A stretch of 40,480 bases of DNA from Mariprofundaceae bacterium (lineage in GTDB: Bacteria; Pseudomonadota; Zetaproteobacteria; Mariprofundales; Mariprofundaceae). Where the stretch lies: the NCBI GenBank assembly GCA_030950585.1, contig JAUZRG010000031.1, forward strand, positions 1 through 40,480, in the 5' to 3' direction. The position numbers and the translations under genes are program-made. Each line of letters starts with the position of its first letter. The first letter of the stretch is position 1. Positions 8,357 through 39,531 of the stretch are shown here, piece by piece. Under the pieces are notes generated by a model that saw only the letters and a program-made list of their open reading frames with translations, had not been told where the DNA came from and did no database searches.

Positions 8357-8804
8357 TCCAATGGGCTAAATGCAATATAAAATCATCTTCTTTCACGTCT
8401 ATATCAGAAACCACTTGATCAGAAACAGAGATACCCGCCTCATGGACTGAACGAACATCACCAGAAATAAGCGGGTGCCATGCTGCCAGACTTCTTCCTT
8501 CATCCAAACGACGATAAGCACAACTTTTGGGCAAAAAATGATAGTTAAAACTGGTGCTTGTTCTGATATTAACACAATCAGAAACTTTTTGCTGCCTTGT
8601 CTCGTAGGACTGACAAGCACAACTTTGTTGATCCAATAAATGGCAGGCCACGGTTGTAAATATAATATCTGAAGTCTCTGGATCTTCTAATTTATGAAGG
8701 CAACAGCGACCACAGTGATCACAAAGTGATTCCCATTCTTGATCCGTCATTTCATCAAAACTTTTCACTTTCCAAAAAGCTGCTTTCTTTTCTAAGTCAT
8801 TCAT
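8346..8804 (-). CDS. YcgN/YkgJ-type cysteine cluster protein (UPF0260)
   Basis: A 152-residue cytoplasmic protein of the UPF0260 (YcgN) group. It opens with F-W-K-V-K-S-F-D-E-M-T and the cluster C-D-H-C-G-R-C-C (Cys28, 31, 34, 35). Further cysteines are at 54, 62, 64, 77 and 95, and the C-terminal landmark is W-H-P-L-I-S-G-D followed by V-H-E-A-G-I-S-V. The pattern predicts zinc or iron-sulfur binding. The biochemical role of the family is not known. It is the first gene of a minus-strand operon reaching to mutY. The near-complete family pattern makes the identification secure. Confidence 0.9.
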   Translation of the reverse strand: MNDLEKKAAFWKVKSFDEMTDQEWESLCDHCGRCCLHKLEDPETSDIIFTTVACHLLDQQSCACQSYETRQQKVSDCVNIRTSTSFNYHFLPKSCAYRRLDEGRSLAAWHPLISGDVRSVHEAGISVSDQVVSDIDVKEDDFILHLAHWIDA

Positions 8805-8884
8805 GGCAAAAAGACTACCATCTCAAAACTTTTTTTTACAAAAAACATCACATACCTTTGGCTTTGAATAGGGGGGAATCAATC

Positions 8885-9817
8885 ATGAATAAATATATTT
8901 ATGCGATATGCTTGTGCATAGGCTTCATCAACATCAGCCTGGCTCACAGTGCTGGTCATGTTTATTTAGGTGTTGCACTGGAATCAACGAAAGATATTGC
9001 ACATTGGGAAAAAACGGTAGGCAAGCGTGCTCACATCATTCATATGTTTTATCGCCTTTCATCCGAGTTTCCTTGGCGACAAACACGCAGAGTTTTAAAA
9101 AAGGGCTATGCTGTGATGTTAACCCTTGAGCCTAGGCTACGTGGTGATCATAAGAAAAAAAGCCGTTTAAAAGATATTTACCATGGTCAACTGGATAAAA
9201 ACTTAAACCACTCCATTCAAATGCTAAAATCTATTTATCATGATTTTCCAAAAGCACAAATCATGATTCGATTTGGTCATGAAATGAATGGTGCATGGTA
9301 CCGCTGGGGCTGCAAAAACAACCACAATCAAAATACCGCTCAAGATTTTATTTTAGCCTTTCAATATGTGGTTAAGTTCTTTCGTCAGCATGATTTAAAA
9401 CAAGTACGCTGGGTTTGGTCACCAAATGTTTCTTATCGTGATGATTTTTCTGTGTATTACCCTGGTGATCAATATGTTGATATTATTGGTATGAGTGGTT
9501 TTAACTTTGGACCCAATACAAGTTATAGACCTGATTTAACTTGGCAGACATTTTCTGAAATTTACGATACAACATATCATGTCCTTAAAAATTACCCTAA
9601 ACCATTAATGATTACAGGTATTGCTTGTGCTGAATCTGGTGGAAATAAAGCAACATGGTTAAAAGACATGCAATATCAATTAAAACATCGTTACCAACGT
9701 ATTACAGGGTTAATATGGTTTAATCTTAATAAGGAAGCGGATTGGCGCATTGATTCATCACAAGAAAGTTTAAAAGCTTCTCAAATTCTTTTTTCAGATC
9801 ATTCTTTATGGCATTGA
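8885..9817 (+). CDS. Secreted GH26-like glycoside hydrolase (beta-mannanase-like)
   Basis: I start at the ATG at 8885, which follows GGGGGGA by seven bases and opens a signal peptide (about residues 1-23). The 310-residue product has the GH26 TIM-barrel landmarks. The acid/base Glu133 is in R-F-G-H-E-M-N-G-A-W-Y-R-W-G, and W-V-W-S-P-N is at about 176-181. The probable nucleophile Glu250 is in G-I-A-C-A-E-S-G-G, and W-F-N-L-N at the end forms strand 8. GH26 enzymes cut beta-1,4-mannan or related beta-glycans. In environmental bacteria such single-domain forms often act on the organism's own exopolysaccharide. No glycosyltransferase cluster is nearby, so the substrate is open. The gene ends 42 bp before the origin-like region. 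Confidence 0.85.
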   Translation: MNKYIYAICLCIGFINISLAHSAGHVYLGVALESTKDIAHWEKTVGKRAHIIHMFYRLSSEFPWRQTRRVLKKGYAVMLTLEPRLRGDHKKKSRLKDIYHGQLDKNLNHSIQMLKSIYHDFPKAQIMIRFGHEMNGAWYRWGCKNNHNQNTAQDFILAFQYVVKFFRQHDLKQVRWVWSPNVSYRDDFSVYYPGDQYVDIIGMSGFNFGPNTSYRPDLTWQTFSEIYDTTYHVLKNYPKPLMITGIACAESGGNKATWLKDMQYQLKHRYQRITGLIWFNLNKEADWRIDSSQESLKASQILFSDHSLWH

Positions 9818-9828
9818 GTGAAGACTAA

Positions 9829-9873
9829 TTACTATTATATATAATATTTAATAAATAATAGTAGTATTAGTAG
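9829..9873 (+). other. Candidate DNA unwinding element with DnaA-trio-like repeats
   Basis: Nearly pure A/T from 9829 to 9860, including an inverted repeat TACTATTA (9830-9837) and TAATAGTA (9856-9863). It runs into the triplets TAG-TAG-TAT-TAG-TAG at 9859-9873. These match the DnaA-trio pattern (5'-TAG type triplets) of the basal origin unwinding system. They lie on the strand whose 3' side meets the first DnaA box (9887) after 13 bases, the polarity expected for DnaA filament growth away from the boxes. Confidence 0.6.
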
Positions 9874-9941
9874 GTAAAGCAAAAATTGTGGATAACTTTT
9901 ATCTTTATCTTTAATATCAAGACCTTAAGCATGAATAAGTA

Positions 9942-9994
9942 TGTGGATAACATGTGGAAAACATGTGGAAAACATGTGGATAGATTGTGGATAA
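9942..9994 (+). repeat. Five DnaA boxes at exact 11-bp spacing
   Basis: Boxes in one orientation start at 9942, 9953, 9964, 9975 and 9986: TGTGGATAA, TGTGGAAAA twice, TGTGGATAG, TGTGGATAA. The 11-bp period places them on the same helical face and makes the block an iteron-like tandem repeat. The single box at 9887 has the same orientation. Confidence 0.85.
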
Positions 9995-10031
9995 GTGAGG
10001 TACTTTTTTGGTGGGCTTGTCTTTTCTTCCT

Positions 10032-10095
10032 TTATTCACAAGTTATCCACAAAGTTATCCACATAAAAAGGGGAGTTATCCACAAGTTATCCACA
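10032..10095 (-). repeat. Five DnaA boxes in the opposite orientation
   Basis: TTATTCACA at 10032 and TTATCCACA at 10043, 10055, 10076 and 10087 form a second array facing the first. Two pairs keep the 11-bp spacing and one is at 12. A last box in the first orientation (TGTGGATAA) lies at 10109-10117. A 37-bp T-rich gap (9995-10031) separates the two arrays. Confidence 0.85.
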
Positions 10096-10184
10096 TACGG
10101 GAATACTATGTGGATAACTAAGCTATTCATGACTCACTGTTCTTTTTATTGGCTATTTTCAGGCTTCGTTATAACATCTCTCAG

Positions 10185-10742
10185 ATGTTTCAATTAATTT
10201 TAACCTACTGTGTGACTTTGATTAAAGAAGTGGTGCATTTAGCGATGATGTTTGCAACAGCTATTTTGCTAAGTATGGGTTTAATCTATGCTTATTCGGG
10301 TGCTTGGTTGCTTTATACACATACTCAAATTGGTGAAAAATTTATTGAATCTCAGTTTGAACTGGCTGAACAGATACAGATTCTCTTAACACAGGGAACA
10401 TCATGGATGTTTTCAGTTGAAGTCGCACTTATAAGCCTTATAGCTTCACTGATGCTCGCAGTCACCTTTCAACTCTTGTGTGTTCGTCATCTACTTTATA
10501 CCAATCTACCGCTTATTCTTAAGCTTGTGCTATGTATTGCTTTGTCTTTTGGGGTAGCGAGATACCAAATGGAAGCATATCTTTTAACAAATGATTATAT
10601 TGCAACGATTTTATTTGCGCCTTTGATGTTGGTTTTATTGCCCGCTTGTATGAGCTGCATACCAAAACTCATTCCAAACCTTGTTCAAGTGGCTCTTTAT
10701 CTCTTTGAAATGATGAAAGAGTTTTTATCAAAATATAGATAA
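10185..10742 (+). CDS. Four-segment integral membrane protein, unknown
   Basis: A 185-residue protein from the ATG at 10185; a TTG at 10149 would add 12 residues, and neither start has a clear Shine-Dalgarno. Hydrophobic segments lie at roughly residues 20-45, 75-98, 107-123 and 136-160. The first is followed by a polar segment, and the C-terminus is a short amphipathic helix ending in S-K-Y-R. I do not recognise a family. It lies directly right of the DnaA-box cluster, and its promoter must overlap or neighbour that cluster. The YqaA-like gene follows after 17 bp, so the two may be co-transcribed. Confidence 0.6.
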   Translation: MFQLILTYCVTLIKEVVHLAMMFATAILLSMGLIYAYSGAWLLYTHTQIGEKFIESQFELAEQIQILLTQGTSWMFSVEVALISLIASLMLAVTFQLLCVRHLLYTNLPLILKLVLCIALSFGVARYQMEAYLLTNDYIATILFAPLMLVLLPACMSCIPKLIPNLVQVALYLFEMMKEFLSKYR

Positions 10743-35451: not shown

Positions 35452-35478
35452 TTGGCACTCTCGATAAGTGAGTGCTAA
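35452..35478. promoter_or_regulatory. CIRCE operator 2 (HrcA binding)
   Basis: TTGGCACTC (35452-35460), a 9-base spacer, then GAGTGCTAA (35470-35478), one mismatch from the consensus. It lies 19 bp upstream of the groES ATG, where it would be in the 5' untranslated leader or overlap the transcription start. It predicts HrcA repression relieved by heat shock. Confidence 0.92.
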
Positions 35479-35497
35479 TTTTCTCAGGAGGCAAGTC

Positions 35498-37452
<1,955 letters not shown>

Positions 37453-37489
37453 ATAGCGCCTTGCGCTAATCATCCGTTTTTACTGATGT

Positions 37490-37525
37490 AAAAAGCCCGC
37501 AAGCTTTGTCTTGCGGGCTTTTTTT
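37490..37525 (+). terminator. Rho-independent terminator of groESL
   Basis: The stem GCCCGCAAG (37495-37503) pairs with CTTGCGGGC (37510-37518) around a six-base loop, with A5 before it and T7 after it. Confidence 0.95.
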
Positions 37526-37651
37526 ATGTGTTTTTTAGTGTGAATCAGCTTTGATGTTGAATGATCAAGACATAATTGGTTTTACTCCCTCATTCTCACC
37601 TTCGGAGTGAGGTCGAAGTTACTAAAAAATAAAAGACTTTTTCTTATTATT

Positions 37652-37691
37652 GTTTCCCTCTCCTTGCGGGAGAGGGCTAGGGTGAGGGAAT
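37652..37691. repeat. Intergenic palindromic repeat, CCCTCTCC type
   Basis: CCCTCTCC (37656-37663) pairs with GGAGAGGG (37669-37676), followed by CTAGGGTGAGGG. This resembles the widespread proteobacterial repeat in which CCCTCACCCTA is joined to an inverted CCCTCTCC unit. Confidence 0.7.
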
Positions 37692-37716
37692 CAAATAAGT
37701 GTTCTTTTATGTTTCA

Positions 37717-37751
37717 CTCGTGCCCATCTCTCCAACGTGGGAATGCATACC
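37717..37751. repeat. Degenerate repeat, CGTGGGAATGCAT type
   Basis: CTCGTGCCCA followed by CGTGGGAATGCATACC looks like a decayed copy of the common repeat that pairs CTCGTTCCCACG with CGTGGGAATGCA. The stem is now poor. Confidence 0.5.
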
Positions 37752-37776
37752 AAATACAACAGAATATTTGTTTGAT

Positions 37777-37812
37777 AAATCCCCCTCGATCCCCCTTTTT
37801 CAAAGTGGGAGG
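37777..37812. repeat. Degenerate repeat, AAATCCCCCT type
   Basis: AAATCCCCCTCGATCCCCCTTTTTC is followed by AAAGTGGGA, allowing CCCCCTTT to pair imperfectly with AAAGTGGGA. It resembles the AAATCCCCC...CCCCCTTT...AAAGGGGG repeat seen in many environmental genomes. Confidence 0.55.
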
Positions 37813-37956
37813 CGTTTCTTTCACCACCGTGTATTACTGCATAAAAGCTGGTTTTATCCCTAAGGTGATGAGGGCAAAGGAACCAAAAGAAAAAGGTTTC
37901 TTTACTATAAAAAGACTTCTGCCAAAGTCATGGCTTCATAGGTTTTAGGAGCATGC

Positions 37957-39531
37957 ATGTCTGAAGAAGAAAGGCGATTATTACAGCAACAACTTTGGAA
38001 TATTGCCAACACATTGCGTGGCAAGATGGGGGCGGATGAGTTCCGTGATTACATCTTGGGTTTTATTTTTTATAAATACCTCTCTGAAAAGATTCATCTT
38101 TATGCCAACAGTCTTTTAGAAGAAGATGGCATTGATTACGCGGATATTGATGAAGCAAGCGAAGACGGTCTGGCTATGGTGAAAGCGGTATCTGAAGAAG
38201 CCATCAACGCTTTGGGTTACACCCTTAAACCTTCCGAACTCTTTAGCAATATCGCCAAACGTGGCAACACCAACGAAGAAGGCGCAAGCAATTTCATTTT
38301 GGGTGATTTAGCGGAAATTCTCAACAACATCGAAATCAGCACGATGGGCACAGCAAGTCAGGATGATTTTGATAACCTATTTGAAGACTTAGACCTGACA
38401 TCCAGCAAGTTAGGTAAAACAGAAAAGCAGAAAAATGAACTCATCGCCAAGGTGTTGGCGCACTTGGATCACATTAATTTTAACCTCGAAGATAAAAAAG
38501 CCGATGTGCTTGGTGATGCTTATGAATACCTGATTGGCCAGTTTGCCAGTGGTTCAGGCAAAAAAGCAGGTGAATTTTATACACCGCAACAAATCTCAAC
38601 CATTCTTGCTCGCTTGGTCACCCATGATAAGCAGGTCTTAAAATCAGTGTATGACCCAACCTGTGGTTCAGGTTCTTTGTTGTTGCGTGTGGCCAAAGAA
38701 GTGAAAGATGTGGCCCACTTTTATGGGCAAGAGTTGAATCGTACCACCTACAATTTGGCACGCATGAACATGATTCTGCATGACGTGAACTACCAGAAAT
38801 TTGATATTTTTCAGGAAGATACACTAGAGCACCCCCAGCATGATTTAGACATGCGTTTTGAAGCTATTGTCGCCAATCCGCCTTTTTCAGCCCATTGGAG
38901 TGCGAACCCATTGCACATGTCCGATGATCGCTTTAGCCAATATGGAAAACTCGCACCCAAAACCAAGGCTGACTTCGCCTTTGTTCAGCACATGGTTCAT
39001 CACTTGGCTGATAATGGCACTTTAGCCGTTATTTTACCGCATGGCGTGTTGTTTCGTGGTGCTGCTGAAGGGCATATCCGCCGCTATTTGATTGAAGAAC
39101 GCAATCTCATTGATGCCGTGATTGGCCTGCCCGCCAATCTCTTTTATGGCACATCTATTCCAACGTGTATTTTGGTGCTGAAGAAATGCCGCACCAGTCC
39201 CAAAGATATTCTTTTTATAGATGCCTCAGCCCATTTTGAAAAATCTAAAAATCAAAACAACCTCAGAGAAGAAGACATCGACAAGCTGATGACCGCCTAT
39301 GACAAACGCGAATTTGAAGACAAATACAGCTATGTCGCCAGCATCGAAGAAGTCGCCGAAAATGATTACAATTTAAACATTCCAAGATACGTGGACACCT
39401 TTGAAGAAGAAGAGCCTGTTGATTTGGATGCCGTGGCCACGCAGCTCATTCAACTTGAGAAAGGAATGAAAGAGACTGATGTGAGCATTGCCGATTTTTG
39501 TGGGCAACTCGGCATTAAGGCTCCGTTTTGA
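37957..39531 (+). CDS. hsdM: Type I restriction-modification system methyltransferase subunit HsdM
   Basis: HsdM is the N6-adenine methyltransferase subunit of a type I restriction-modification enzyme. The 524-residue protein has the N-terminal HsdM_N domain (W-N-I-A-N-T-L-R-G-K-M and Y-I-L-G-F-I-F-Y-K-Y-L-S-E), and A-G-E-F-Y-T-P-Q-Q-I-S at about 204-214. The SAM-binding motif I is D-P-T-C-G-S-G-S-L-L (233-242) and the catalytic N-P-P-F is at 308-311. TAGGAG precedes the ATG. The stop overlaps the RhuM gene by one base. hsdS and hsdR should lie beyond the right edge. Confidence 0.96.
   Translation: MSEEERRLLQQQLWNIANTLRGKMGADEFRDYILGFIFYKYLSEKIHLYANSLLEEDGIDYADIDEASEDGLAMVKAVSEEAINALGYTLKPSELFSNIAKRGNTNEEGASNFILGDLAEILNNIEISTMGTASQDDFDNLFEDLDLTSSKLGKTEKQKNELIAKVLAHLDHINFNLEDKKADVLGDAYEYLIGQFASGSGKKAGEFYTPQQISTILARLVTHDKQVLKSVYDPTCGSGSLLLRVAKEVKDVAHFYGQELNRTTYNLARMNMILHDVNYQKFDIFQEDTLEHPQHDLDMRFEAIVANPPFSAHWSANPLHMSDDRFSQYGKLAPKTKADFAFVQHMVHHLADNGTLAVILPHGVLFRGAAEGHIRRYLIEERNLIDAVIGLPANLFYGTSIPTCILVLKKCRTSPKDILFIDASAHFEKSKNQNNLREEDIDKLMTAYDKREFEDKYSYVASIEEVAENDYNLNIPRYVDTFEEEEPVDLDAVATQLIQLEKGMKETDVSIADFCGQLGIKAPF

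Follow-up and report, generated by a model that had tools for sequence, protein, structure and literature searches.

Where does replication of a chromosome begin when the genes that usually mark the origin are scattered? Origins tend to keep their place within a bacterial family, and in 32 genomes sampled from the Mariprofundaceae dnaN lies next to dnaA, across gaps of 247–1073 bp (mostly ~270 bp) that, where looked at, usually contain two to four DnaA boxes. In the bacterium studied here (G000, a 2.52 Mb draft genome of 212 contigs), dnaA is on contig C169, where its neighbors are a PTS enzyme I-family gene and an apparent RNase P RNA, dnaN-recF-gyrB is on C144, and mnmG-rsmG-parA-parB is on C203, with an exact parS by mnmG; the flanks of dnaA, dnaN and mnmG contain no exact DnaA box. 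A cluster of such boxes lies instead in the window, by which we mean the whole 40,480-nt stretch analyzed here (contig C138), in which, as the original prediction stated, none of the usual origin genes was recognized. From the parts and spacings of this locus, the uniqueness of its box cluster, a strand-composition switch, and the location of dnaA, dnaN and mnmG on other contigs, all established by computation, we conclude that positions 9824–10117 are very probably the chromosomal oriC of this bacterium, away from the dnaA-dnaN site usual for the family.

The box cluster is exceptional. Our recount agrees with the eight exact and four variant TTATCCACA boxes originally reported, the variants each having one mismatch, and places them within 231 non-coding bp (9887–10117; Table 1). 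The draft genome contains 66 exact boxes per 2.52 Mb, eight of which are in this interval; the Poisson chance of eight per 231 bp is ~1.6e-23, and none of 2,000 dinucleotide shuffles of 9825–10150 yielded more than one box. We found no second cluster in 58 contigs (1.39 Mb, 55% of the genome), where no 300 bp elsewhere held more than four boxes, counting those with up to one mismatch. The tract is intergenic, and a 103-amino-acid ORF that spans it is simply the box repeats translated. The left neighbor, described earlier as GH26-like, matches PF02156, and the right neighbor, described as an unknown membrane protein, has no Pfam or NCBIfam match. Weak relatives of the latter occur in six family genomes; their loci, where read, are without a box cluster, and a synteny search gave no matching array.

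Table 1. Coordinates of the proposed origin, its surroundings, and related loci
Feature	Position	Strand	Remarks
AT-rich duplex-unwinding element (predicted)	9824..9886	.	13% G+C over 9826-9885; nearest-neighbour stability
DnaA-trio-like TAG run TAGTAGTATTAGTAG	9859..9873	+	13-bp spacer to box 9887
First, unwinding-proximal DnaA box, exact	9887..9895	-	Position of E. coli R1
IHF consensus TATCAAGACCTTA	9915..9927	+	Flanked by boxes 9887 (28 bp away) and 9942
Left array, five DnaA boxes	9942..9994	-	Exact 11-bp steps (9942, 9953, 9964, 9975, 9986)
Right array, five DnaA boxes	10032..10095	+	Opposed to left array (10032, 10043, 10055, 10076, 10087)
Last DnaA box, exact	10109..10117	-	
Exact TTATCCACA boxes	9887-, 9942-, 9986-, 10043+, 10055+, 10076+, 10087+, 10109-		
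One-mismatch TTATCCACA boxes	9953-, 9964-, 9975-, 10032+		
Third-position skew switch	8792..10232	.	Support interval (3 log units); best breakpoint 9370; array inside
GH26-like gene, left neighbor	8726..9817	+	Outside origin; Pfam PF02156, E 1.2e-14
Membrane protein gene, right neighbor	10149..10742	+	Outside origin; start codon uncertain
Loci with DARS-like core	L007, L010, L013, L014, L015, L016, L017, L018, L022, L153, L287, L288, L290, L292		

The AT-rich tract said to adjoin the boxes is indeed there, and for window lengths of 30, 50 and 80 bp alike, nearest-neighbor stability across all 40,480 bases is lowest in the windows that start at 9824–9832, which together span 9824–9905. Within the AT-rich tract lies a run of TAG triplets, TAGTAGTATTAGTAG. 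DnaA-trios are read in the orientation 3′-GAT-5′, with a spacer that peaks at 10–13 bp in BUS origins, and an origin is assigned to the BUS class when at least three trios lie within 16 bp of a DnaA box (PMC8287927). The run here has at least three trios, a 13-bp spacer, and the polarity of the 3′-GAT-5′ rule. However, while BUS origins have a single or paired box, this locus has twelve strong boxes, and its unwinding is predicted. Strand opening would be expected at the trio run and the AT-rich element, judging from the sequence.

A match to the IHF consensus, TATCAAGACCTTA, lies between the first and second boxes. Since the 40 kb contain eight such matches versus 4.0 expected, this site is weak on its own, and it is its position that carries the weight. 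The genome encodes both IhfA and IhfB, and its DnaA retains the DHTTV box-reading motif. Matches to GroEL, DnaA and IHF point to the Pseudomonadota, probably to the Gammaproteobacteria. GGGNAGGG motifs are absent, which is uninformative.

The arrangement of these parts resembles that of E. coli oriC (reference NC_000913.3:3925744-3925975). Common to both are an unwinding element followed by a box in the position and orientation of R1, and left boxes in one orientation with right boxes in the opposite one (PMC5742627); here, six minus-strand boxes are followed by five on the plus strand and one on the minus. The E. coli-type plan, in which R1 is followed by the IHF site at 27 bp and the next box, R5M, at 55 bp, with opposed arrays, is present at 9824–10117 with distances of 28 and 55 bp. 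A box, an exact IHF consensus and a second box in this geometry were found nowhere else in the 6.5 million strand-bases scanned, although the scan misses E. coli itself, whose IHF site does not fully match the consensus applied. There are also differences. Most boxes in E. coli are weak, whereas all twelve here are exact or one mismatch from consensus. The low-affinity, ATP-DnaA-specific boxes and repeated GATC of the E. coli type were not seen here, the boxes having been scored to one mismatch and 9825–10150 containing no GATC. Also unlike E. coli, the left boxes are regularly spaced at 11 bp, the array extends further, its final box is on the minus strand, and mnmG does not adjoin.

If this locus is the origin, does strand composition change there? 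We measured G/C skew on the plus strand at third codon positions, split by gene orientation. To the left of the array, skew is −0.17 for plus-strand genes and −0.32 for minus-strand genes; to the right, it is +0.13 and +0.14, respectively. The cumulative third-position skew has its minimum at 9358, and none of 20,000 gene permutations equaled the observed switch. Raw cumulative GC skew is misleading in this window, as the minus-strand nuo operon draws its minimum to 28,177. The skew change that the original prediction had glimpsed in hand-counted lines holds at third positions, but not in the raw cumulative curve. The cumulative-skew check that it proposed, carried out at the level of genes, showed a change of sign at the array, with negative values to its left and positive ones to its right, and controls agree: in three relatives (the complete genome G008, G007 and G005), third-position skew turns at dnaA-dnaN, less sharply in G008 and G005, with plus-strand genes to the right of dnaA-dnaN in G008 merely neutral (0.00). 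No such turn occurs at the dnaA and dnaN loci of G000 itself. Three features expected of an oriC, namely a non-coding box cluster, an AT-rich element beside the boxes, and a lagging-to-leading composition switch, coincide at 9824–10117.

As the genome is a draft, the skew evidence is local and per contig rather than a whole-chromosome curve. Among the 58 contigs (1.39 Mb, 55% of G000), the window's contig has the sole clear negative-to-positive crossing, and three (C169, C65 and C118) have opposite, terminus-like switches. One terminus accounts for one of the three, which suggests that the others are inversions, foreign DNA or joins. Given this surplus of opposite switches, further switches must exist in the 45% of the genome outside the 58 contigs. 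Comparison of contig ends revealed no overlapping neighbor for the window's contig among the contigs read. Within the window, skew fades at 35468–39531, a point against the origin reading; groESL and hsdM, a type I restriction gene, lie there, and this DNA was perhaps acquired.

Could the array instead titrate or recycle DnaA, as datA and DARS do, with the true origin elsewhere? Sites of this type consist of clustered DnaA boxes, in some cases accompanied by IHF sites (PMC5742627). datA is a box cluster with an IHF site that promotes DnaA-ATP hydrolysis. The array has boxes and an IHF consensus, and on its boxes alone a datA-like role would be conceivable, though such a role would leave the skew switch and the unwinding element unexplained. 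Moreover, DARS-like cores are present in relatives of this bacterium: the arrangement TTATCCACA-N3-TTATCCACA-N5-inverted box, which matches E. coli DARS1 (L307), recurs in many of them at differing loci (Table 1). This core geometry is, however, absent from the window, which disfavors a DARS site and weakens the refutation by a titration site that the original prediction had named. Nor did the core turn up in the 55% of G000 covered by the contigs read. Neither datA nor DARS requires an unwinding element, a trio run or a skew switch, yet all three are present at the array, and the unwinding element and skew switch are not expected of datA. A second cluster of this kind did not turn up in G000, and the flanks of dnaA, dnaN and mnmG offer no exact box. 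We consider a titration or recycling site very unlikely. Box pairs that we considered as candidate origins in other relatives were rejected, as most proved to be DARS-like cores.

A second concern raised with the original prediction was that the array might have come in with an integrated DnaA-dependent plasmid, as that plasmid's origin rather than the chromosome's own. There is a precedent for the left array on a plasmid: in NZ_CP011788 of Candidatus Palibaumannia, six exact boxes in 11-bp steps come after an AT-rich stretch. That repeat differs from the locus described here in that it has one orientation only, contains no match to the IHF consensus, and resides on a 3.5-kb plasmid. A comparison with 72,556 plasmid records gave a single match, which covered 20% of the query. 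In addition, no plasmid replication or mobilization gene was found among the neighbors tested, and the nearby genes, which include ilvC, bioB, dapA, nuo and groESL, are core chromosomal ones. A silent insertion is unlikely because the skew on both flanks has had time to adjust, and a captured origin, had it replaced the old one, would now be the chromosomal origin all the same. An integrated plasmid origin that is not the chromosome's own is therefore highly improbable.

Equally improbable is that the skew switch reflects an inversion or assembly join beside an unrelated box cluster: although the opposite switches in C169, C65 and C118 show that rearrangements or misjoins occur, and ilvC, bioB and nuoH of the window lie hundreds of kilobases apart in the complete relatives G008 and G068, so that the neighborhood must have been rearranged, the breakpoint interval holds the genome's only large box cluster and a complete complement of origin parts at E. 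coli spacing, which would be an improbable coincidence.

How might an origin at 9824–10117 work? We infer that DnaA and IHF bind there, that the DNA unwinds, and that replication actually initiates. DnaA would occupy the twelve boxes and IHF would bend the DNA at 9915–9927, allowing DnaA on the left-hand boxes (9887 to 9994) to grip the strand opened at 9824–9886. The TAG trios of TAGTAGTATTAGTAG could serve as the entry track for DnaA onto the opened strand, after which helicase would be loaded for both directions.

The interpretation of this locus as a chromosomal origin, now supported by the skew switch with its controls, the unwinding element, the trios, the IHF consensus and the spacings, raises the question of how it came to be there. 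Probably the origin was moved or was rebuilt at a new site, and the data fit either course. There is some slight chance that a captured DnaA-dependent, plasmid-type origin with regular strong boxes at 11-bp steps replaced the dnaA-dnaN origin, became the sole chromosomal origin, and acquired E. coli-like geometry. If so, initiation would be controlled without weak, ATP-specific boxes.

An early survey found that ~40% of 568 chromosomes did not fit the expectation of an oriC next to dnaA and near a skew switch (PMC2275245); an origin away from dnaA is therefore not new in kind. What is notable is relocation in a family where the dnaA-dnaN arrangement is otherwise retained, together with a box set that is all strong. 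The family's dnaA-dnaN origin (for example in G005, G008 and G036) has the same box consensus, is likewise non-coding, and lies at a skew switch, but it usually has two to four boxes, compared with the twelve found here away from both genes. This bacterium thus presents a twelve-box origin among unrelated metabolic genes, with dnaA, dnaN and mnmG-parAB scattered and the family site left behind, and it offers a natural case for studying how origins move. In E. coli, weak DnaA sites help time initiation, and the locus is equally a natural case for asking whether such timing is possible with strong boxes alone. A practical consequence is that, for genomes of this sort, numbering that takes dnaA as base 1 would put the origin in the wrong place.

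The partition sites also lie away from the array, which counts against the origin reading. The best parS match in the window has three mismatches, which is near chance, and parS-like sites are on C203 and C160, with none on the window's contig. Those on C160 are at 42.3 and 54.9 kb, and near 54 kb of the same contig third-position skew climbs from −0.27 to −0.03 toward the contig end; this contig may belong close to the origin or carry foreign DNA.

Separation of dnaA from dnaN also occurs in a second genus, g14, where the two genes are on different contigs in three genomes (G013, G028 and G035) and probably split in a fourth (G021), in which dnaN was not found. The split may be common to g14 and g1, the genus of G000. 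Finally, we note that the detached dnaA of G000 lies ~6 kb from the gene for the Cas3 helicase of a type I CRISPR system (C169, 5499–7697).
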